Positions 55,344 to 63,950 of a DNA stretch of 64,000 bases are shown here, piece by piece. The DNA is taken from NCBI GenBank assembly GCA_016191555.1, contig JACPVX010000044.1, forward strand, positions 113,531 through 177,530, written 5' to 3'. The notes under the pieces were generated by a model. That model worked only from the letters and a program-made list of their open reading frames with translations, ran no database searches and was not told the DNA's origin. This stretch comes from Bacteroidota bacterium (GTDB taxonomy: Bacteria > Bacteroidota > Bacteroidia > Cytophagales > Cyclobacteriaceae). Numbering within the stretch: position 1 is the first letter of the stretch; each line of letters opens with the position of its first letter. Both the position numbers and the translations under genes were made by a program.

Positions 55344-55415
55344 GGCACGAATCTGCTGCGATAGGAGATTTTTCAACTTCGCAAGATTTGCACATTTCCG
55401 AGTGCTTGCATCCAT

Positions 55416-55423
55416 TACTTTTG
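55416..55423 (+). promoter_or_regulatory. -7 promoter box for the secreted VOC protein
   Basis: TACTTTTG, a full TAnnTTTG match, 12 bases before the ATG at 55436. Confidence 0.5.
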
Positions 55424-55435
55424 GTAAAAAACAAA

Positions 55436-55894
55436 ATGAAAAAGTACTTGATCATTGCACTGATCCTGCTAGTACATACATCAAGCGCTCAAAACAACTC
55501 AACTAACAAACCAATGACCATGGAAACCGTTTCACCAAACATTTTTGTCAACGACATTCACGCTACTGTTCAATTCTATAAAACTCTCGGATTCACGGTT
55601 ATAGCCGCTGTGCCGGAGCAGAAAAACCCGATCTTTGTGATGATGACGTGCGGAAGTGTAACTTTTATGTTTCAAACATTTGCCAGCATCGAAAACACGT
55701 TACCACTGGTTAACAGAAGCAAGGGCGGTTCATTGCTGCTATATATTAAAGTGAAAAATATCCGTGCATTCTTTGAGAAGATCAATGATAAGGTCACCGT
55801 TTTGCACGGACTGGAAAAGACGTTTTATGGCGCCACCGAGTTTTCAATTCAAGACAATAACAATTACATGTTAACTTTCGCGGAAGATGAATGA
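55436..55894 (+). CDS. VOC-family protein with signal peptide
   Basis: 152 residues from ATG at 55436. A signal peptide (YLIIALILLVHTSSAQ) precedes a VOC domain: VSPNIFVNDIHATVQFYKTLGFTVIAAVP, then TCGSVTFMFQ and a final GATEFSIQDNNNYMLTFAEDE. An exported VOC protein is unusual because most are cytoplasmic. Its end overlaps the next gene by eight bases. Function unknown. Confidence 0.82.
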   Translation: MKKYLIIALILLVHTSSAQNNSTNKPMTMETVSPNIFVNDIHATVQFYKTLGFTVIAAVPEQKNPIFVMMTCGSVTFMFQTFASIENTLPLVNRSKGGSLLLYIKVKNIRAFFEKINDKVTVLHGLEKTFYGATEFSIQDNNNYMLTFAEDE

Positions 55895-56732
55895 CGCAAA
55901 TCGCCTGGACATATTAATCACAGAGAAAAAAAAGCTGAGGGCGAACAAGATCAAGCTGAGTGAAATCCATCGCCATTCTGCAGAAGACCTGCGAGCTCTT
56001 TTGGACATCTCAAAAATACGGGCGATGGAACTGAGAGCGATCTCCGAATTTCAAACCATCCCTTCTATTGGAATCCGGTTTGCCTTCGACCTTATTTCAC
56101 TGGGTTTTTATTCAATTCAAGAGCTCAAAGGGAAAGACCCTGCCAAACTTGTCGACCGACTGGAGCGTCAATTAGGCGCCTGGATTGATCCATGTGTCGA
56201 AGACCAAGTGCGTCTTTGCGTTCACTATGCCCAGCATTTTGATAGCCGCATGAATTGGTGGGATTTTACCAAAGAGCGAAAAGACTTCCGACAGCAATAC
56301 GGTTATCCGGCCAGCCGGCCGAAAACAGCTTGGCATCAATTGGAACAATACAAGCCGACTAATAGAATTAAAGCCCAAAATGAAATCACAAAAAAAGATT
56401 TGACCAACAAGCTAAAACGTGCTCTTCAATTGATGAGAAAGAATATAAAAAGCGGTGTTACGTTGGCGCAATTGGCGGACGCGGCCAATCTATCACCTTT
56501 TCATTTTCACCGGTTGTTCAAGAATGCCTATGAGCTAACACCACTTCAATACTTTACGCGCCTTCGCATGAAAGAAGTATGCAAGCTTCTGACAAAAACG
56601 AAGAGGCCCATTTCTTTCGTGGCAGCTTCTTGTGGATTTGAAGATCAGAGCTCTTTCATACGCCTTTTCAAAAAAGAATTTAAGCAGACCCCACTTGCTT
56701 ATCGCAAATCTAAAAGTAGTGTACAGAGATAA
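55887..56732 (+). CDS. Cdd1-like helix-hairpin-helix plus AraC-type DNA-binding protein
   Basis: 281 residues. Residues about 50-135 fit the Cdd1 ('pathogenicity locus') helix-hairpin-helix pattern: FQTIPSIGIRFAFDLISLGFYSIQELKGKDPAKL, then CVEDQVRLCVHYAQH and NWWDFTKERK. Residues about 175-278 are an AraC HTH pair: TLAQLADAANLSPFHFHRLFK and ISFVAASCGFEDQSSFIRLFKKEFKQTPLAYRK. The start overlaps the secreted VOC gene by eight bases, so the two are coupled. Likely a transcription factor with an extra DNA-binding module; targets unknown. Confidence 0.8.
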   Translation: MNDANRLDILITEKKKLRANKIKLSEIHRHSAEDLRALLDISKIRAMELRAISEFQTIPSIGIRFAFDLISLGFYSIQELKGKDPAKLVDRLERQLGAWIDPCVEDQVRLCVHYAQHFDSRMNWWDFTKERKDFRQQYGYPASRPKTAWHQLEQYKPTNRIKAQNEITKKDLTNKLKRALQLMRKNIKSGVTLAQLADAANLSPFHFHRLFKNAYELTPLQYFTRLRMKEVCKLLTKTKRPISFVAASCGFEDQSSFIRLFKKEFKQTPLAYRKSKSSVQR

Positions 56733-56968
56733 TCGAGCGCGCCAAAAATAGAGATTGTGTTAGCCGGTGTTCGTATTTTCACCGATCACCTAAACACACT
56801 CAGCAGCATGCTTCCGGTCTTATTTCTCTGAATAAAGTTTTATCTTCGTTCAATGTTTTCGTTTTCCTGCGAGGCGCGGGGCAGGCAGTGGGTCAGGCCG
56901 CAGCTTTGATAAGGCACCCTGAAGAAACATAAACTTTCGGGTAATTAATTCTGAACAATTTCCATATC
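56733..56968. other. intergenic stretch, no gene seen
   Basis: 235 bases without a supported gene; contains a GC-rich segment (GCGAGGCGCGGGGCAGG) and no clear promoter, hairpin or repeat copy. Confidence 0.5.
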
Positions 56969-57508
56969 ATGATAATAAAACTCTACTGGACAACTTTAAT
57001 TCTTACTCACATCATACAATTGGCCTTTGGTCAGTCGAATACCATTCAAGGATTCAACCCCAACGAGGAATTGATTGAAAAGAAGTTCTTTAATAAGATG
57101 ATATTGCTTATTCCTAAGAGCTATTCCAGAACAGGTAATAAAGCAGTTGGCGAAATGTTTGACATTATCTCGTTTGAAAATGCCAGCGAGACGGTCTGGT
57201 TTTATATCAGAAAGAAAAGTGGAGAGGGGAATCTTGATGTCGCGAAAACTGTTCACGAATCGATGGCAACCTCATTATATAAAGGAGAAATCCATAAAAG
57301 CGAATTCAGGAAAATTAATAATCGGACAGTTTACATTTTTGAAATGACCGGGTATTGGAACGGGTCATCAACAAAGGAATCTTGGACTAAAATTTTCACG
57401 GTTGATAATGGCGACTTATATCAATGCTTGATAAAATATCCTGAAAAAGACCGAATACCAACTCAAAATATCCGCGACAAGATTATCGCGTCTTTTAAAA
57501 TAGATTGA
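56969..57508 (+). CDS. exported protein of unknown function
   Basis: 179 residues. A signal peptide ends in QLAFGQ (about residue 22). The mature part is a mixed alpha/beta domain with alternating strands (LIPKSYSRTGNKAVGEMFDIISFENASETVWFYIRKK, NNRTVYIFEMTGYWNGSSTKESWTKIFTVDNGDLYQCLIKYPEKDR), which might be PsbP-like, but I do not recognise a family. It is the last gene before the repeat-punctuated region. Confidence 0.65.
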   Translation: MIIKLYWTTLILTHIIQLAFGQSNTIQGFNPNEELIEKKFFNKMILLIPKSYSRTGNKAVGEMFDIISFENASETVWFYIRKKSGEGNLDVAKTVHESMATSLYKGEIHKSEFRKINNRTVYIFEMTGYWNGSSTKESWTKIFTVDNGDLYQCLIKYPEKDRIPTQNIRDKIIASFKID

Positions 57509-57556
57509 AATAAACAGCCCCAAGCTTTCCTCTGTCCGAGCAGAGTTCTCCGCACC

Positions 57557-57582
57557 GCTCCCCTCCTGATAAGGAGGGGAGC
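57557..57582. repeat. perfect CTCCCCTCCT hairpin
   Basis: GCTCCCCTCCT and AGGAGGGGAGC form a perfect 11-bp stem with a four-base loop (GATA). Similar C-rich/G-rich hairpins are common intergenic elements in Bacteroidota genomes; it may also end transcription. Confidence 0.7.
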
Positions 57583-57603
57583 TCGGCGGGGTGGTCACAG
57601 ACA

Positions 57604-57749
57604 TAAGTCTTTTAATCAAGTAGAATCCATTGACTTGTTGACTGCGCTCTGTTTCGCAACTCACTCCCCCGATTAACCATTAACGATTAACTCTCAACTT
57701 TCTTACACAAGACTTTATTTGGGGGTGTGGCAGGGAAGAACGAAATTTG
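57604..57749. repeat. composite intergenic repeat, copy R1
   Basis: Shares with R3 the segment AAGTCTTTTAATCA..GTAGAATCCATTGACTTG, then a CTCCCCC tract, four heptads (TTAACCA, TTAACGA, TTAACTC, TCAACTT at 57673-57700), and an end reading TTTG-N20-GAAATTTG (57718-57749). About 130 bases separate it from the next gene, with a small TGTTG/TCGC hairpin at 57817-57840. Confidence 0.85.
57718..57749 (+). promoter_or_regulatory. promoter-like end of repeat R1
   Basis: TTTG at 57718-57721 and GAAATTTG at 57742-57749 with exactly 20 bases between; the -7 box differs from TAnnTTTG only in its first base. The same arrangement is kept in R3 and R4. Confidence 0.5.
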
Positions 57750-57879
57750 TAAGAAGGCAACAGGGAATAGACAAGTAACATAGGAGCGAGTGTTATGTAA
57801 ACCGCGCTTAGCCTAGTGTTGATCGCAATGCGACACAACAAGCCGTTAAAATTAAATGTAACAATTAAGTTTAGACCAA

Positions 57880-58407
57880 ATGACTAACTATTTACTTGTT
57901 CCGGGACTTGGCAATTCAGGACCTGAACATTGGCAGACTTACTTTCAGAACGCAGGCGACAACTTTTTTAGAATTGAACAACAAGAGTGGGACGCACCAA
58001 CTTGTAAAGAATGGATTGAAACAATTGACAAGAAAGTTTTAGAGTTTGACCTTTCAACTGTTGTGCTTGTCGGTCACAGTTTAGGTTGCTCCTCCATTGC
58101 TCATTGGGCGACAAAATACAAACGTAAAATTAAAGGTGCGTTACTTGTTGCCCCAAGTGACCTTGAAGCGCCACAATACACTTTTCCTGCCACTGGCTTT
58201 ACTCCAATACCAATTGGCAAAATAAATTTTAAGACAATTGTTGTTGCAAGTGCAGACGACATTTGGGTTTCGTTAGACAGAGCTAAGTTTTTTGCAGACA
58301 ATTGGGGAAGCGAATTTCTTAATATAGGCAACGCTGGACATATCAACGTGGCTTCTGGACACACAAATTGGGACGAAGGAATGAAGATATTAAAAACACT
58401 TGGCTGA
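57880..58407 (+). CDS. RBBP9/YdeN-type alpha/beta hydrolase
   Basis: 175 residues, one domain. The family opening VPGLGNSGPEHWQTYF, the nucleophile serine in VLVGHSLGCSSIAHW, the acid in VVASADDIWVS and the histidine in IGNAGHINVASGH are all present. These small serine hydrolases are of unknown substrate. It is the first cargo gene after repeat R1. Confidence 0.88.
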   Translation: MTNYLLVPGLGNSGPEHWQTYFQNAGDNFFRIEQQEWDAPTCKEWIETIDKKVLEFDLSTVVLVGHSLGCSSIAHWATKYKRKIKGALLVAPSDLEAPQYTFPATGFTPIPIGKINFKTIVVASADDIWVSLDRAKFFADNWGSEFLNIGNAGHINVASGHTNWDEGMKILKTLG

Positions 58408-58414
58408 CAAAATG

Positions 58415-58450
58415 CTCCACCCTCGATGGCGTTCTTCACCAACGAGTAAC
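58415..58450. repeat. composite intergenic repeat, partial copy R2 (hairpin part only)
   Basis: CTCGATGGCGTTCTTCACCA continues into ACGAGTAAC, matching the hairpin part of R3 (CTCGTTGGTG-TTCTT-CACCAACGAG). The later parts of the repeat are absent. Confidence 0.6.
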
Positions 58451-58502
58451 CTATTCATCAGATATTTTCTAACTTTATTGTCTTGTAACTGCAAAACGTT
58501 GG

Positions 58503-58531
58503 CGGTCGTGCATGACGACCGTGCAAATTTG
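58503..58531 (+). promoter_or_regulatory. hairpin and promoter-like box before the interrupted gene
   Basis: CGGTCGT (58503-58509) and ACGACCG (58515-58521) form a 7-bp stem. CAAATTTG (58524-58531), one base off TAnnTTTG, lies 15 bases before the ATG at 58547. Confidence 0.35.
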
Positions 58532-58546
58532 AAACTGACTAAAAAA

Positions 58547-59326
58547 ATGAACTGTAAACTGATCGGAGGTTACTTGACATTGATACTTTCACTTGTATGA
58601 ACGTTTTCTTATGGGCAGACAAATTCCTGTGAAGAAGTTGGCAACGACCTTACGAAACTACACAATAAAATTTTATCGTTTTATCGTGATAATTATGACT
58701 CATTAAGTTTTTACAGCGACCTTTTTTCAACAAAGCTGACAGATTATATTAAAAAGAATCCTTCCACCTTAGATTGTAAGTTCAAATCATTAACCGACAG
58801 TAATACGTGTGGTATCGTGACAAGTGCTGATAATTCATTCAGGATTTACAGTTGGGATACTTGGCTGGGCGGGAGCATGCACAATTACAAAAATCTTTTT
58901 CAATTCAAATCGGGAGGAAAAGTTCGCACATTAACATTTGATTATGGCGAGGGAGACATGGGAACTTATTTCACAGATGTTTTTTCTCTTAAGGCGAATG
59001 GGAAAATATATTTCTTAGGGGTTAGCGGTGGAAGCGAATCAAGTAAATATGCTTATCAAGTGATCAGAGCGTATTCCATTACAGACAGCACAATTGATGA
59101 TTCGATTAAACTAATTAAAACTAAAAGCGGACTGCAAAGCTCTATTCTTATTGAATATGATTTTTTTAGCGTGGTTGACAGACCTGAAAGACCAATAAAG
59201 CTAATCAAGTATGATGCTGATAAAAAGATAATTTACATTCCTATTGTTTGGGAAAACGGAAAGGTGACGAACAAATTTATTCGCTATCAATTCACAGGAC
59301 AATATTTCGAAAGACTCTCACAATAG
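58547..59326 (+). pseudogene. exported-protein gene interrupted by an in-frame TGA in the signal peptide
   Basis: From ATG at 58547 the frame reads a signal peptide (MNCKLIGGYLTLILSLV), then TGA at 58598-58600, then TFSYGQTNSCEE and on to the TAA at 59324-59326 without further stops. The first part has the hydrophobic core and the part after the stop supplies the SYGQ cleavage region, so the two halves clearly belong together. Without the stop the protein would have about 258 residues. The mature part has no family I recognise (GGSMHNYKNLFQFKSGGKVRTLTFDYGEGDMGTYF). It may be a recent nonsense mutation, a sequencing error, or a gene translated from a later start (GTG 58817) as a leaderless fragment. 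Confidence 0.75.
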
Positions 59327-59368
59327 ACGTGTTAAACTGACCGAAATAAATCCGAGAAATATCTATTG

Positions 59369-59767
59369 ATGGAAAAAACAAGATTTTCTTTTGGATTACT
59401 GAAAGTTGCAAGCTTGGGACTAATAATGGTTTACTTGGCGGCAGTAATTACAGTTGGGGCTGCTGGACATGATTCTTGGGACACAGTTTCTTTTCTGGCA
59501 ATTTTTATTTATTTAATTTTTCTTGTAACGCTACTTTTCAAGTTCCAAAAGAATAAAAACAAGACAACAGGGACATTTTTACTCGTTATGTTAATTCCTG
59601 CTGTTGCTCTACTCTCTTTTTACGTCTTCATGATTCTGGCTGACATCTTCTCGGGAAAATCAGGAATTATTGAAATTGAAATTCTGATAGCATCAGTTTT
59701 GTTGGTGTTCATTGCATCAAGCATTTTGGTTATCAGAGAGATATTATTTAGGAGAAGGCCAAATTGA
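59369..59767 (+). CDS. small integral membrane protein
   Basis: 132 residues from ATG at 59369 with four hydrophobic helices (about residues 12-34, 41-60, 74-94 and 103-123) and short charged loops. No family recognised. It follows the interrupted gene by 42 bases. Confidence 0.65.
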   Translation: MEKTRFSFGLLKVASLGLIMVYLAAVITVGAAGHDSWDTVSFLAIFIYLIFLVTLLFKFQKNKNKTTGTFLLVMLIPAVALLSFYVFMILADIFSGKSGIIEIEILIASVLLVFIASSILVIREILFRRRPN

Positions 59768-59781
59768 CAGCCCTTGCTATC

Positions 59782-59969
59782 CTCGCCCTCGTTGGTGTTC
59801 TTCACCAACGAGTAACACCTCTGACGCAAGTCTTTTAATCAGTAGAATCCATTGACTTGCTGACTGCGGGCTGTTTCTCAACTTACTCCCCCGTTAACTA
59901 TTAACGATTAACTCTGAACTTCTTACCACAACACTTTTTTGGAGGTATGGCAGAGATAGGCGAAATTTG
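59782..59969. repeat. composite intergenic repeat, copy R3 (most complete)
   Basis: Contains, in order: a perfect 10-bp hairpin (CTCGTTGGTG, loop TTCTT, CACCAACGAG; 59788-59812), AGTAACACCTCTGACGC, AAGTCTTTTAATCAGTAGAA, CTCCCCC, heptads TTAACTA, TTAACGA, TTAACTC and TGAACTT (59894-59921), and TTTG-N20-GAAATTTG (59938-59969). Confidence 0.9.
59938..59969 (+). promoter_or_regulatory. promoter-like end of repeat R3
   Basis: TTTG (59938-59941) and GAAATTTG (59962-59969) with exactly 20 bases between, 40 bases before the Tdi1-like gene. Confidence 0.5.
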
Positions 59970-60009
59970 GTTGAGCAAACTATTACTCAGGCAAATTGGA
60001 TTTCGATAA

Positions 60010-60486
60010 ATGAGAATAAATCTGGATGACTTAACGGTAAAATTCAATGAGGTAGTGGCTGACAAATTAACTGTGAGCTGGACTTGGTTAATAGGCACAA
60101 ACAAAAAGCCAATATTGGTTTCTGCAATCGGAGACATGTTTTTACAAGCTAATAGTAAAGAGATTTACTGGTTGGACGTTGGTGGCGGTGAAATGAGACT
60201 AATTGCAAATGGTATTCAGGACTTTGAAGAGAAACTTAAAAACATTGAACAAGTGAACGAGTGGTTCATGATTGACTTAGCTATGAACCTTAGACTATCC
60301 GATAAAAAGTTAAAAGACGGTCAACTTTACTCTTACAAGAAATTGCCCATTATCGGTGGCGATTACACGGCAGACAATTTTGTACCGTTGGACATTGTCG
60401 AACATTTCTGCTGTACCGGGGACCTTCACAAGCAAATCAAAGACCTACCGGACGGCACGATGGTGGAAATTAAGATTGTAGAGTAG
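60010..60486 (+). CDS. Tdi1-type T6SS immunity domain protein (DUF1851)
   Basis: 158 residues. The pattern TWLIGTNKKPILVSAIGDMFLQ, IYWLDVGGGEMRLIANGIQDFEEKL, NEWFMIDL, YSYKKLPIIGGDYTADNFVPLDIVEHF and GDLHKQIKDLPDGTMVEIKI follows the DUF1851/Tdi1 family, whose Agrobacterium member neutralises a type VI DNase toxin. There is no toxin or secretion gene here, so it would be an orphan immunity gene or a relative with another role. It directly follows the promoter-like end of R3. Confidence 0.8.
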   Translation: MRINLDDLTVKFNEVVADKLTVSWTWLIGTNKKPILVSAIGDMFLQANSKEIYWLDVGGGEMRLIANGIQDFEEKLKNIEQVNEWFMIDLAMNLRLSDKKLKDGQLYSYKKLPIIGGDYTADNFVPLDIVEHFCCTGDLHKQIKDLPDGTMVEIKIVE

Positions 60487-60505
60487 ATTGCAGCTCCAAT
60501 TACTG

Positions 60506-60901
60506 ATGACGAAAATTGTTATAACCATTTTATGTTTACTGACTCCACGGGCGTTTTCACTGCCAGACTCTGTTCGCGGAAAGCAATATGAATTGGCGGG
60601 GAAAATAATTGGTTAGGTCCAGTTGACTCCTGACTGTGGGATGATAGCTTGGGGAACAGTTATTGAATTTGAAATAATTAAATTTTCTAATTCGGACTAT
60701 AAATCTACAAGCATAGGACTTATATTCACCTGTCCGGAGTTTTATAAAGATAATTTCTTTCAAGTTGGACAGACTTACAACGTTAAAATCGCGGATGAGA
60801 ATCAGGCAGATTTTGGGTGGACAATTCCTAATCAATCTTTATTAGACAAGTATAAATTGGACAAGAAACTTTGGGTTACTGAGGCAGAGCTGGTTAAATA
60901 A
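60506..60901 (+). pseudogene. exported-protein gene interrupted by an in-frame TAG
   Basis: From ATG at 60506 the frame reads a signal peptide (MTKIVITILCLLTPRAFS), LPDSVRGKQYELAGKIIG, then TAG at 60614-60616, then VQLTPDCGMIAWGTVIEFEI and on to the stop at 60899-60901. One in-frame stop splits an otherwise normal gene of about 131 codons. The beta-rich mature part (YDVKIADENQADFGW-like) is not in a family I can name. Like the gene at 58547, it seems to have decayed recently, or the stop is an error. Confidence 0.7.
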
Positions 60902-60931
60902 CAGCCGGCAGCAGTATAAACAAGAACAATC

Positions 60932-61519
60932 GTGAGAACACTCCTGAAATACCTGATACTTTTGACAGTCTTTGTTCTCTGTGCTTGTGCAAGGAAGAAT
61001 GAAAATACAGAGGAGCAACGACTGGCGCATGTGCGGGCTTTAATTAAGAGAGTCGGATTTCAACAATTACCCTACACCTACGACTTGGCAGAAAGTAATA
61101 TAGAAGCGAAATACACGGTGGACATGAATTCGATGGACACACTGTTTTTTGATTCCGGTAGCTTTGGCGGAGTATTGCCGGACACCACGAAATACTTTGC
61201 CTTTCTCTATTATCAGCCGGGCGACTCTCTTTACCCTTTTCTAACAACCATCGATAAGAAGGGAAATTTAATTGACACGAAGATTATTGGAATTGGAGCT
61301 TGTCGGGGTTTACTAATTGATATCGACAGTTGTGTAGACAAGGTATCGATCAATAACGATCTCGAGATTGAGTTACTATATAAAATGCGAGGCACCACTG
61401 AAACCAATGATAGCATACCCAAGATCATTGCTATTTGCAACCAGATTATGGGTACCGGAAAAATTACGATAGATGGAAGAATCGTAATTTACAAAAGTGA
61501 ACGAATGAATTGCGATTAG
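60932..61519 (+). CDS. lipoprotein of unknown function
   Basis: 195 residues from GTG at 60932. Lipoprotein signal (LLKYLILLTVFVLCAC). The mature part has a beta-rich stretch (FFDSGSFGGVLPDTTKYFAFLYYQPGDSLYPFLTTIDKKGNLIDTKIIGIGAC), several Asp-rich turns (SCVDKVSINNDLEIELLYKM) and a C-terminal strand. It resembles small Bacteroidota lipoproteins without a known role. Confidence 0.65.
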   Translation: MRTLLKYLILLTVFVLCACARKNENTEEQRLAHVRALIKRVGFQQLPYTYDLAESNIEAKYTVDMNSMDTLFFDSGSFGGVLPDTTKYFAFLYYQPGDSLYPFLTTIDKKGNLIDTKIIGIGACRGLLIDIDSCVDKVSINNDLEIELLYKMRGTTETNDSIPKIIAICNQIMGTGKITIDGRIVIYKSERMNCD

Positions 61520-61526
61520 TCATAAC

Positions 61527-61758
61527 TCGCCCTCATTGACGTTCTCCAACAACGAGTAACACCTCTGGTGCAAGTCTTCTAATCAGTAGAAGCATTGACT
61601 TGTTCCACTCATCCTGCCAATCCTAAAATCCTGATTCAGACATTGAGCAGTCTGCCCGCCTCGCAACACGCACCCCCGATTAACCATTAACGATTAACTC
61701 TCAACTGCCTCCGCGGCAACACTTTTTTTGGATGTCTGGCATGGAAGCGCGAAATTTG
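61527..61758. repeat. composite intergenic repeat, copy R4
   Basis: Begins with a weaker form of the hairpin (CTCATTGACG..CAACAACGAG), keeps AGTAACACCTCTGGTGC, AAGTCTTCTAATCAGTAGAA, an inserted segment shared with R5 (ATCCTGATTCAGACA, then GAGCAGTC), the C-tract, heptads TTAACCA, TTAACGA, TTAACTC and TCAACTG (61680-61707), and TTTG-N20-GAAATTTG (61727-61758). Confidence 0.88.
61727..61758 (+). promoter_or_regulatory. promoter-like end of repeat R4
   Basis: TTTG (61727-61730) and GAAATTTG (61751-61758) with exactly 20 bases between; the ATG of the next gene at 61764 is only 5 bases after it, predicting a leaderless message. Confidence 0.55.
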
Positions 61759-61763
61759 TTAAC

Positions 61764-62228
61764 ATGACAATTCTATTAGACATCGATGGAGTTTTAGTAA
61801 CAACACCAAGCTGGCAACCGACCGAACAATTGTCGGACGGCTTCATGAAATTCAATCAAGCTGCCGTTGAGAATCTAGCAATTGTATACAAGGAGACAAA
61901 CGCTTCTATAATTTTGACAACAACCCACAGAATAAATTTTGACGAAGCGAAGTGGAAAGACATCTTTAGAACACGTGGACTGAATTTTCAGACAATCACA
62001 AAATTGAATAACAAGACAAGAATTGATCAGTTGTCTGACAGATCAACTGAGATTAGAGAATGGGTTGAGCAAAATGGACAAAACGAAAACTATGTAATAA
62101 TTGACGATGACGCTTCGCTAAATGGTTTGACAAACGATATTAAAGAACGTTGGGTTTCGACTAAACCATTAATCGGTTTTGACAAAGATGCAAGAGTAAA
62201 AACATTGAATATCTTAACAAATAATTGA
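61764..62228 (+). CDS. HAD-domain protein (HAD_SAK-like)
   Basis: 154 residues from ATG at 61764, chosen over an upstream ATG (61728) because the latter lies within the repeat R4 promoter. The HAD nucleophile motif is LLDIDGVLV; ASIILTTTHR and YVIIDDDASLNG are the later HAD motifs II and IV. It matches the small HAD domains found in Swiss Army Knife RNA-repair proteins. Substrate unknown; a phosphatase activity is likely by family. Confidence 0.78.
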   Translation: MTILLDIDGVLVTTPSWQPTEQLSDGFMKFNQAAVENLAIVYKETNASIILTTTHRINFDEAKWKDIFRTRGLNFQTITKLNNKTRIDQLSDRSTEIREWVEQNGQNENYVIIDDDASLNGLTNDIKERWVSTKPLIGFDKDARVKTLNILTNN

Positions 62229-62275
62229 GCTGACGGAAAAATTAGTAACTAACGACACATTAAAACCCGGAGAAA

Positions 62276-62731
62276 ATGCCAGAGAATGTTGATACACAAA
62301 ATCAGGAAAGTAAACCAGTCAAAACAAACGCGTGGACAAAAAACATTGTTAACGACCTGGACGCACCTCTGTTTTATTCACCCAGAGCAATTTGGGGCTT
62401 CTCTGTATTCTTCACAGTTATATTTGGCGCAGTCCTTCTGGCATCGAACTTGACGGACAAAAAAGCAAAGTGGATGGTGATTGGATTTGGTATTCTCTAT
62501 TCAGCGTTCGCAATTGTTGTCATGGATTTACTTCGGCAGCCGAGCAGAGGACTAGCAATCGGTTTGAATGGCGGGGGAGCACTCATTTTGACAAATATAT
62601 TTTGGAGTAAGTATGTTGGTATGGAGACCAAGTTTAGAACGAAACCTATTTGGAAACCACTAATAATTTCTATGCTCATCGCGATTCCATATATTTTGGT
62701 ACTTATCTTAGCTGCGGGTAAACGAAATTGA
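62276..62731 (+). CDS. small integral membrane protein
   Basis: 151 residues; four hydrophobic helices (about residues 40-58, 67-85, 94-112 and 128-148) preceded by a 35-residue polar N-terminus. No family recognised. It lies 47 bases after the HAD gene, probably in the same transcript. Confidence 0.65.
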   Translation: MPENVDTQNQESKPVKTNAWTKNIVNDLDAPLFYSPRAIWGFSVFFTVIFGAVLLASNLTDKKAKWMVIGFGILYSAFAIVVMDLLRQPSRGLAIGLNGGGALILTNIFWSKYVGMETKFRTKPIWKPLIISMLIAIPYILVLILAAGKRN

Positions 62732-62766
62732 GAATAACTTCAATGCCGTTGATGGTAAAGCTCACT

Positions 62767-62795
62767 AAGAATGGTAGAAGAGCGAAATTGGATTT
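62767..62795. repeat. degenerate remnant of the repeat end
   Basis: GGTAGAAGAGCGAAATTGG resembles the GGCAGAGATAGGCGAAATTTG end of R3; the rest of the repeat is missing. Similarity is limited. Confidence 0.3.
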
Positions 62796-62847
62796 GCATT
62801 TGTGCAATAAGAGGATATAAACGAGACAGCAACTTTAGATACTACCC

Positions 62848-63606
62848 ATGGGTAGAATAGATATGACAGGGAACGAAGAATTCATTTATGAAGCCATTTT
62901 TACCCAAGTTCGAATGGGGTTTCTATCAATCCGAGATATTAAGGAAAATATTAATGAAGCCATTAAGGATAATGGATTTGATGAAGAGATTTCTGAAAAA
63001 TGGGCTGCCGAGAATATTGAAAGAGAATACAACAAATTGTTAATAGAAAGCGAAAAATGGAAAAGTCCAACAGACACAGAAAAGCTGATTGAAGCTTTTG
63101 ATGAATTATGTAAACAAAATATCATTGCTCTTCACAATGCGGGTTATACCACTAGTGACGGAGAATCCGAAGTAGTCGAAGTAGAAAAGGTATTGCGGGA
63201 AAATGGAGTAGTTTCAGACGGGTATTGTTTTTATCACGAGCAAGATCTTTCAAGGGCTATTAGCCCTGAGGACTCAAATCTTTACATGGCATACCAAAAA
63301 GTCGATAATTCAAATGATAGCGTAACATTGGAAGTGGGACGAAAGGTCGCAAAAGTTTTAACCGACAAGGGGTTCAAAGTAGAATGGAATGAAGATGTGA
63401 ATAGGAAAATTTTAATTCCCGATTTCAAATGGCAACATATCTATCGCGAACGAAAGCGAGATTTGCTGAATTATGATCAAGTTGTTGAAATGATGCTGCG
63501 ACACAAGCAGCCAACTATACATAACAGCAATGGCGAAGACAATTCGAAATCAACCAGCGAAGCGAATCATAAACCAAAGTTTTGGTGGAAAAAGTTGTGG
63601 GAGTAA
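62848..63606 (+). CDS. DUF6891-type protein
   Basis: 252 residues, no signal peptide. Residues about 65-200 fit DUF6891: KLIEAFDELCKQNIIALHNAGYTTSDGESE, GYCFYHEQDLSRAI, YMAYQKV, GRKVAKVLTDKGFKVEWNEDVNRKILI. The N-terminus is a helical extension and the C-terminus has a basic/aromatic end (KPKFWWKKLWE). Function unknown; proteins of this kind are common in accessory gene sets with immunity proteins. Confidence 0.72.
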   Translation: MGRIDMTGNEEFIYEAIFTQVRMGFLSIRDIKENINEAIKDNGFDEEISEKWAAENIEREYNKLLIESEKWKSPTDTEKLIEAFDELCKQNIIALHNAGYTTSDGESEVVEVEKVLRENGVVSDGYCFYHEQDLSRAISPEDSNLYMAYQKVDNSNDSVTLEVGRKVAKVLTDKGFKVEWNEDVNRKILIPDFKWQHIYRERKRDLLNYDQVVEMMLRHKQPTIHNSNGEDNSKSTSEANHKPKFWWKKLWE

Positions 63607-63643
63607 ATCCGCCACCCCGTATTCTATCTTCTGTCTACACCCA

Positions 63644-63785
63644 ACAATCCTGCCAATCCTGATTCAGACAGAGAGCAGTCCACTCGCCTTGCAATACGAA
63701 ATCCCCCAATGCCTAATGACCATTGACTGCGCACTGTTTCGCAACTCACTCCCCTAATGACCATTGACTAATGACCAACGAGGTA
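63644..63785. repeat. composite intergenic repeat, copy R5 (variant)
   Basis: Shares with R4 CAATCCTGATTCAGACA and GAGCAGTC; with R1 the GACTGCGCTCTGTTTCGCAA-like stretch and ACTCCCC; its heptads have changed to ATGACCA, TTGACTA and ATGACCA (63757-63777). The promoter-like end is missing. Confidence 0.75.
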
Positions 63786-63802
63786 AGTGTATGCTAGACC
63801 AT

Positions 63803-63838
63803 TTTTCGTTATATAAAACGAAAGTTTTCGTTGTATAT
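63803..63838. promoter_or_regulatory. repeated TTTTCGTT operator-like site
   Basis: Three half-sites: TTTTCGTTATATA (63803-63815), the reverse-complement form ATATAAAACGAAA (63811-63823), and a forward copy TTTCGTTGTATAT (63826-63838). The last two form an inverted repeat with 12 of 13 matches. It looks like the operator of a small regulator, about 110 bases before the next ATG. Confidence 0.45.
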
Positions 63839-63950
63839 CGTTAGTTGAGCTCCCTCTCTGCAGCGCAAACTGGCAAATCTCATTGGAAACAGCATAATTA
63901 AGTTTGGCACGAGATATGTAAGTGTCTTTTCAAAACTTAAATACAATTTT

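Follow-up and report, generated by a model that had tools for sequence, protein, structure and literature searches.

How do small accessory genes come to stand between copies of one intergenic repeat when no recombinase gene is in sight? The question is raised by the right-hand end of a 64,000-nucleotide stretch of DNA (here called the window; G000:C16:113531-177530) from a Bacteroidota bacterium of the family Cyclobacteriaceae, whose right edge coincides exactly with the end of its contig. There, copies of a composite repeat (R1 to R5) separate groups of small genes. The initial annotation of this DNA proposed a cassette-like array with units gained or shuffled by recombination between the repeats, and regarded it as different from integrons. 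Our analysis, in which genomes, contigs, and loci carry the prefixes G, C, and L and G000 is the window's own genome, leads to another reading, to which we give a probability of roughly 0.7: the composite repeat appears to belong to an integron-like cassette system as one of its dispersed landing platforms, with a predicted terminator, a predicted promoter, and a predicted insertion point.

The composite repeat and its promoter-like core

The composite repeat is real, and its frequency is far above chance. The best full-length pair, R1 and R3, is 86% identical (E = 6.6e-39). The genome-wide search that the initial annotation had called for gave, in the 4.1-Mb metagenome-assembled genome (MAG) and at E ≤ 1e-3, 22 places for R1 and 24 for R3, counts that take in the window's own copies and partial copies. 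The matches lie on contigs C16, C44, C57, C63, C84, C21, C73, C25, C69, C36, C86, and C13, and the predicted association with accessory genes was seen in the loci examined, which were partly picked for having matches. The same order of parts, first described for five copies, holds for R1, R3, and R4. It fails for R5, which has only the middle and heptad parts, and for R2, which is the hairpin part only (58420-58450), a palindrome found alone in relatives too. Single modules of the composite also stand alone in its own genome, and some copies of the hairpin part across the genus occur in inverted pairs. R3 was matched in 9 of 38 relatives, with every place among the matches listed falling inside its first 35 bases. 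Of all the modules, only the hairpin is a short dispersed extragenic palindrome of the repetitive extragenic palindrome (REP) kind.

A profile of the promoter-like core, built from seven stretches that include R1 itself, found 37 copies in 25 loci of the own genome, loci that were selected for having matches and are not a genome-wide sample. The gene after the core was on the same strand in all 36 copies that have one, at a median distance of 82.5 bp, and the gene before it was on the same strand in 32 of 35. We call this conserved end promoter-like with reference to the -33/-7 promoter motif of Bacteroidota.

The 3' end of the repeat matches sites beside integrase genes

R1 continues past position 57749, where it had been thought to end, to an attI-like site ending at the GTT at 57818-57820. 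A blind profile was built from 14 composite 3' ends of the own genome, excluding contig C58, which carries the integrase gene, and C69; one badly cut row (C63 4598) was retained. Searched with this profile, 90 loci around integrase genes (1.28 Mb in total) gave their strongest matches directly after the integrase stop codon, in the own C58 (L051, E = 3.4e-10), in L082 (3.4e-9), and in L083 (2.7e-4). Two further rows were the same palindromes on the opposite strand, weaker matches (E = 0.08-0.95) lay downstream of the integrase in L088, L090, L084, L086, and L200, and one match (L142) was stray. An earlier iterated profile, which may have included C58 itself, was set aside for this clean one. 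A second end type, type B, in which three composite copies (on C63, C44, and C69) end in a different hairpin, behaved in the same manner. Across 1.35 Mb and at E ≤ 0.1, its profile matched only a site about 40 bp after the integrase stop codon of G064 (E = 2.5e-13), one place represented by two loci. The 3' ends of the repeat are thus homologous to sites beside the integrase genes of two lineages, and since one of these adjoins the own integrase, the repeats are likely to be cassette ports.

A covariance model of the type A site, built from 13 rows of which 12 come from this species, was run on the own genome and recognized 22 distinct attI-like sites there (12 of these being model rows), vs one integrase gene (E ≤ 1e-60); two additional hits were reverse reads of palindromes. 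In the other 39 genomes, 29 had no match, nine had one, and G044 had six; given the origin of the model, low counts elsewhere do not show an absence of multiple sites. The six hits in G044 (G044:C1, L291-L294) are accompanied by two weak attC hits and by no integrase at E ≤ 1e-60, and this is perhaps another genome with dispersed sites.

After two hits with no readable core were dropped, the cores of the remaining 20 sites in the own genome read GTT, except for three with GCT. In 18 of the 20, position 11 of the following cassette is an A, vs 34% of 1694 control TGTT sites (loci with several sites being counted more than once among the controls), and the same A is present at seven of the eight sites outside the model. 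For 10 of the 20 (on C44, C58, C63 twice, C76, C69, C73, C84, and C66 twice) we found the cassette's own far end, with a complement to the start that at most 7 of 200 controls reached. Fourteen of the 22 type A sites and all three type B sites are preceded, at no more than 120 bp, by a promoter-core copy; the remaining type A sites, for example those on C58, C69, and C76, have no promoter-core match within that distance.

An integrase without the IntI-specific domain

The integrase gene on C58 encodes a 481-amino-acid tyrosine recombinase, the only one of its kind in the own genome at E ≤ 1e-60; an integrase at this threshold was found in 37 of the 58 genus genomes. The stop codon is followed by a hairpin ending CTAAT|GTT, then by a 155-amino-acid gene unit that starts with GTTGTAGGCAACCCC and ends with GGGGCAGCCTACAAC, and then by an attC-like site (model E = 6.2e-18). 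A hairpin and GTT directly 3' of the integrase stop, the position of an attI as judged by sequence only, are also found in Flammeovirgaceae bacterium UBA5008, the integrase of which is 92% identical to that on C58, and in others. By eye, loci of other Bacteroidota, Algoriphagus and Roseivirga among them, repeat the layout of integrase, inverted repeat, GTT, and cassette; an SSB-like gene (single-strand-binding protein, by eye) follows the integrase instead in L088, L090, L092, and L087. The contrast with integrons that the initial annotation drew from the lack of an integrase thus holds for the window only: none lies within it, and elsewhere the genome holds one with the same neighboring site.

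The best family for this integrase is TIGR02249, with scores, for three proteins, of 213-224 bits in two stretches against a cut-off of 265 and with a gap of 58 profile positions. Relative to the best solved relative, IntI4 (2a3v), it has 18 residues in place of 61. The additional domain specific to IntI is accordingly missing, and the protein carries an extra N-terminal region. The catalytic R, H-x-x-R, H, and Y motifs can be seen in the sequence. In the own genome TIGR02249 gave matches, as it did in all 14 control genomes, so that a match by itself is uninformative; at E ≤ 1e-60 it matched nothing in 241 genomes of the order, controls included, which is no evidence of absence. As a separate observation, the catalytic part (residues 243-480) has relatives of 59-60% identity on Acinetobacter contigs (L102-L104), including a chromosome and a plasmid.

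attC-like sites and a large array in a relative

G055, a genus genome in one contig, carries an integrase of 64% identity at 2303880-2305244 (minus strand). Downstream of it, a scan for complementary arms at 100-140 nt identified 249 attC-like sites in 240 kb (2.07-2.31 Mb), vs 1-2 sites in five shuffles and 0, 1, 0, and 0 in four ordinary 20-kb regions. The sites are dense at about 2.10-2.29 Mb, their median spacing is 455 bp, and model hits continue below 2.07 Mb. In the run that showed this density, the hits are symmetric between strands by construction, and strand is uninformative there. An early structure scan for attC in loci of the own genome had given little above shuffles; with the right lengths, it worked on G055.

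The two ends of one G055 cassette are complementary to each other at a mean of 12.43 of 16 positions (n = 241); randomly paired ends average 7.94, and when the arms of a single array site are compared with each other the mean is 8.18. Pairing reaches 0.92-0.95 at positions 4-8, extends to position 16, and falls to about zero at position 11, which is an A in 247 of 249 starts and faces a T in only 1 of 214 well-paired cassettes. The site modelled for the circular cassette was more stable than the array site in 171 of 200 cases (mean, -33.3 vs -25.8 kcal/mol), and giving the circle site a random other start returned it to -25.5 kcal/mol. In the own genome, contig C53 repeats the pattern, with the position-11 A in all seven cassettes and matching ends in six of them at 13-15 of 16 and in one at 10.

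A covariance model was built from 31 of 35 diverse G055 candidates, one having been excluded as apparently false and three more being unused. At E ≤ 0.01 it matched in 52 of the 58 genus genomes, own included. At most 58 candidates were scored per genome, so that the genus-wide counts are lower bounds. The own genome has 30 sites, on C53 (eight), C63 (five), C69, C64, and C80 (three each), and C58, C76, C73, C36, C84, C21, C44, and C83 (one each). Sites of attC type that end cassettes are therefore found in the own genome, in G055, and across the genus, and none is intact in the window.

Two further features of G055 deserve mention. At about 178-323 kb of G055:C1, additional attC-like hits on both strands accompany another integrase (322957-323775); this region (about 0.18-0.32 Mb) may be another large array that has an integrase of its own. 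Within the main array, for example at 2226943-2229766, a gene-poor cassette starting with GTTATGCGCAAGCCCCGCG recurs many times along the array (by eye).

Window cassettes in relatives

The proposal that the window's units are cassettes is supported by the unit of the serine hydrolase (57818-58415), the sole unit with a recognizable junction in the window, that from R1 into the cassette. This unit occurs in four relatives, each time with different neighbors, and in the loci compared (about 1.7-3.5 kb) no neighboring open reading frame (ORF) of at least 80 amino acids was common to the genomes. Homology begins at 57818 in G055, G048, and G057 and ends at 58415 in G055 and at 58412 in G048. In both G048 and G055 the unit begins at the same GTT and ends in CTACCAAC, after which comes an attC; the window has R2 at that place. 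In G048, G055, and G057, the cassette is preceded by the end of an attC, not by a composite repeat. One extra match, of 45 residues, came from an ORF antisense to the G055 hydrolase gene. A homolog of the membrane protein gene at 62276-62731 is likewise a lone cassette in G007, where an attI-like site, the cassette, and an attC stand amid other genes, and in G022 it is part of a unit with cassette ends and no attC. The presence of the same hydrolase cassette amid other neighbors bears indirectly on excision and insertion by the integrase, the putative site-specific enzyme that moved the window's units.

Proposed mechanism and alternative explanations

In the mechanism we propose, the substrate of the C58 tyrosine recombinase would be a circular cassette with ends that pair to form an attC-like hairpin, and the enzyme would join the circle to an attI-like site at its GTT. 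Relatives of the G055 type have the attI-like site next to the integrase, at the head of one long array. The own genome has about 25 such sites (22 of type A, including the integrase-adjacent one, and 3 of type B), 17 of them with a promoter-like block upstream, and for this reason we propose that its cassettes are held in many small, separately expressed groups. The comparisons establish that the sites are homologous, which way they face, where cassettes begin and end, that the ends of one cassette are complementary, and that the system exists in relatives; that the C58 enzyme catalyzes the reaction, that the promoter-like blocks are active, and how the platforms were copied, we infer. Because the enzyme lacks the IntI-specific domain, the system would work like an integron while falling outside the usual definition of one. 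The fuller picture, of a many-port integron in a Cyclobacteriaceae-type bacterium with a recombinase devoid of the IntI domain, more than 20 chromosomal platforms, most with a promoter, and a circle-completed hairpin with an unpaired A, is a tentative one to which we give somewhat less than even odds.

Several observations weigh against the landing-platform reading. The MAG is 77% complete and broken in arrays, and the window's contig ends in its array, so that the window cannot be placed relative to C58. The window has no intact attC by the attC covariance model, which left the relic at 56833-56960 unrecognized as well, and the hydrolase cassette in the window lacks a matching end (9 of 15, a score that 184 of 200 controls attain). 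R3 and R4 stop at the promoter-like part, and R2 and R5 are fragments. The promoter-like end of R4 lies so close to the next start codon (5 bp) that a message from it would be almost leaderless, and 4 of the 37 promoter-core copies are inside a called ORF. Own cassette ends were not found in the DNA examined for the other 10 of the 20 attI-like sites; for one of these, on C57, an end AAGTTGCTGCTAAC was seen by eye in a neighboring locus. Base-pair covariation in the attI hairpin was not significant (29 to 103 of 500 shuffles). In G055, only 46.5% of the 241 cassettes reach 13 of 16, which makes pairing a tendency and not a rule, and the modelled stabilities of the bottom and top strands of the circle site differ only slightly (-33.3 and -31.3 kcal/mol, respectively).

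Some of these points would fit a window that is the decayed end of an ordinary chromosomal integron, a cluster of attC sites lacking an integron integrase (CALIN) in which the attC sites were overwritten by repeats and the attI-like ends are functionless remnants. The attC relic, the two broken genes, the lack of an intact attC, and the survival of related cassettes intact elsewhere all speak for this. However, the integrase is not a standard IntI, and the sites on C44, C63 (two), C76, C69, C73, and C84 lead cassettes whose own ends are still present, so that the distant platforms are not all dead; we regard this explanation as unlikely. By the usual count of two or more attC sites with no integrase, the window, with one relic and no model hit, is not a CALIN, and contig C53, with eight sites, would be one. 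In our own reading, too, the window array is decayed: it consists of one attC relic, one attI-like site (in R1), the promoter-only R3 and R4, the hairpin R2, and the fragment R5, a stretch in which most attI and attC parts are lost and the promoter-bearing repeats remain.

An ordinary dispersed repeat, made up of a REP palindrome, a promoter-like part, and heptads and accumulating in accessory regions with no cassette role, would explain why the hairpin is scattered alone through the genus, at times in inverted pairs, why R2 and R5 are fragments, and why modules stand alone in the own genome. It would not lead one to expect 3' ends resembling the sites next to the integrases of two lineages, an A at position 11 of the cassette start at 18 of 20 sites, or a core that faces the next gene in 36 of 36 copies, and we think it quite unlikely. 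Homologous recombination between repeats, the original proposal for how units were gained or shuffled, is suggested by repeats of the same order separating accessory genes with differing cargo; it is very unlikely given that the best full-length pair is only 86% alike, that exchanges seen in relatives took place at the GTT and at the end of the cassette where its attC lies and not within the repeat, and that three relatives carry the hydrolase cassette after an attC end instead. A role of the terminal hairpin as an mRNA leader or attenuator for the gene downstream, and not as a recombination site, would accord with its position after a promoter-like sequence and with the 82.5-bp median distance from the core to the next gene, but the same site follows integrase stop codons and ends where cassettes begin, and the next bases fit the cassette signature; we consider this extremely unlikely.

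Features of the window and neighboring observations

The features of the array are listed in Table 1. Its main genes are all on the plus strand and two of them are broken, as first described. It starts further left than had been proposed, with the attC relic, which matches attC stretches on C63 (E = 1.2e-16), C69, C58, and G055. The covariance hit for the R1 site (C16:171299-171356, E = 6.5e-9) is to one of the 13 rows of the model. The immunity-domain protein has a paralogue of 77% amino acid identity at C66:9-410, with an attC-like stretch downstream (by eye). PADLOC gave no match among nine window proteins. A hairpin after R5 (63800-63850), first taken as a second attI, was rejected because this region lies upstream of ORFs of about 250 amino acids in G070 (two contigs) and G064.

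Table 1. Features of the array at the right-hand end of the window
Feature	Position	Strand	Evidence
Decayed attC, 3' half, upstream of 179-aa (amino acid) gene	56833-56960	+	blastn matches to sequence within or partly within attC hits
Predicted exported protein of 179 aa; probable cassette gene	56969-57508	+	
Terminator-like inverted repeat left of R1, at the place of the CTCGTTGG hairpin in R3 and R4	57550-57589	+	
R1, composite repeat with promoter-like end	57604-57749	+	Promoter-core profile at 57713-57749, E 7.1e-9
attI-like site, type A, divergent copy; predicted crossover GTT 57818-57820	57769-57826	+	
Hydrolase cassette, conserved unit in relatives; own attC lost in window	57818-58415	+	
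175-aa serine hydrolase	57880-58407	+	PF06821, E 3.7e-52
R2, dispersed hairpin unit, at position of the cassette's attC in relatives	58420-58474	+	
GTTGGCGG, possible next cassette start; suggestive only, no position-11 A	58498-58505	+	
Gene 2, one in-frame stop; product without assignment	58547-59326	+	
Small membrane protein (by eye; no family above cut-off)	59369-59767	+	
R3, composite repeat; hairpin and promoter-like end present, attI part absent	59782-59969	+	
Orphan Tdi1-type immunity domain (type VI secretion system)	60010-60486	+	PF08906, E 1.3e-13
Gene 5, one in-frame stop	60506-60901	+	
Lipoprotein-like protein (by eye; no family above cut-off)	60932-61519	+	
R4, composite repeat, no attI part; 5 bp to next start codon	61527-61758	+	
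HAD_SAK_2 protein	61764-62228	+	PF18143, E 1.2e-26
Membrane protein of 151 aa, homologous to cassette genes of G007 and G022	62276-62731	+	48% and 58% aa identity
DUF6891 protein	62848-63606	+	PF21831, E 2.4e-53
R5, middle and heptad parts only	63644-63785	+	

To the left of the array lies a VOC-like and AraC-type gene pair (55366-56732; AraC-type gene, 55887-56732). The AraC-type gene is present in 9 of the 58 genus genomes, own included, and the pair is common to the four closest relatives at 80-88% DNA identity. No shared DNA was found beyond the pair in the 3.6-3.8-kb loci of these relatives, and there is consequently no conserved flank for testing an empty site. In G011, an attC-like 3' end was seen by eye downstream of the pair, which may be a two-gene cassette.

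An Rfam scan of six sources at the gathering threshold returned only group II introns. One of these (L030, C63:1-2053, minus strand), with a reverse transcriptase/maturase (TIGR04416, E = 5.1e-121; Rfam RF00029/RF01999), has its start immediately past an attC that ends in ..CACAAACG. On C44 (L031, C44:3751-3870, minus strand), the sequence past the intron end begins with the cassette-start-like TGGCAGTAATTTTGC. The group II intron seems, from these junctions, to sit at the attC crossover point; attC-targeting group II introns insert at that point. On C73 (L035, minus strand), the first 340 or so bases, at the contig end, are tandem repeats of about 21 bp (TCCACTCGCTACTGC..AACG-like).

Comparison with known systems

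Integrons have been reported from Bacteroidota (PMC8618304, PMC2426708). Cassette arrays, though, have seldom been described there: in the IntegronFinder 2 account, an earlier survey had found only integrases with no cassettes in these bacteria, and Salinibacter ruber M1 was later added as the one complete integron (PMC9024848). The picture of integrons in the phylum would change with a 240-kb stretch that holds 249 attC-like sites and with attC hits across 52 of the 58 genus genomes. According to published accounts, integron recombination requires the IntI domain (PMC9668308; Messier and Roy 2001, by its title as cited in PMC2426708), and an integrase acting in its absence, if true, would represent either an earlier stage or a second way of moving cassettes. 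In long arrays only the first cassettes are usually expressed, a limit that promoter-bearing platforms at dispersed places could relax, and the conserved mismatch, together with the circle-completed hairpin, makes a directly testable recognition rule. Among the open-access literature matches listed, no title or start of an abstract describes such a system.

The system resembles the superintegrons of Vibrio in its long one-direction arrays of small cassettes, its attC-like imperfect palindromes of about 130 nt with AAC/GTT bounds, and the integrase and attI at the array head; pairing of R boxes, reaching 9-11 nt, is also reported for most classical cassettes of such sedentary chromosomal integrons (PMC2727003). 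It differs in that the integrase has no IntI additional domain, has an extra N-terminal region, and reads toward the array, in its end-to-end pairing, which extends to about 16 nt around a conserved mismatch (position 11), and in its many attI-like sites away from the integrase. The direction of the integrase is shared with the chromosomal integrons of Treponema, in which intI and the cassettes point the same way, the gene reading toward attI (PMC3607928). Those are described with one attI per integron (PMC3607928), whereas here there are about 25 attI-like sites per integrase and the integrase scores below the integron-integrase cut-off.

With respect to the repeat itself, the CTCGTTGG...CCAACGAG hairpin is, like REP palindromes, a short dispersed palindrome, but it is only one module of a composite. 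In the promoter (gene-less) cassettes of Vibrio superintegrons, a non-coding unit supplies a promoter to the next cassettes (PMC11014356); the composite repeat is likewise a non-coding unit with a promoter-like end ahead of cassettes, and, unlike those attC-bounded cassettes, it ends in an attI-like site. Cassettes of the Delta-attI type in class 1 integrons have an attI-type site in place of the cassette's attC (PMC12901181), as is the case here. They are single cassettes in mobile integrons, whereas here we see a repeat family with a promoter-like block and a hairpin, present in many places. Delta-attI cassettes and promoter cassettes are the nearest parallels to the composite repeat.

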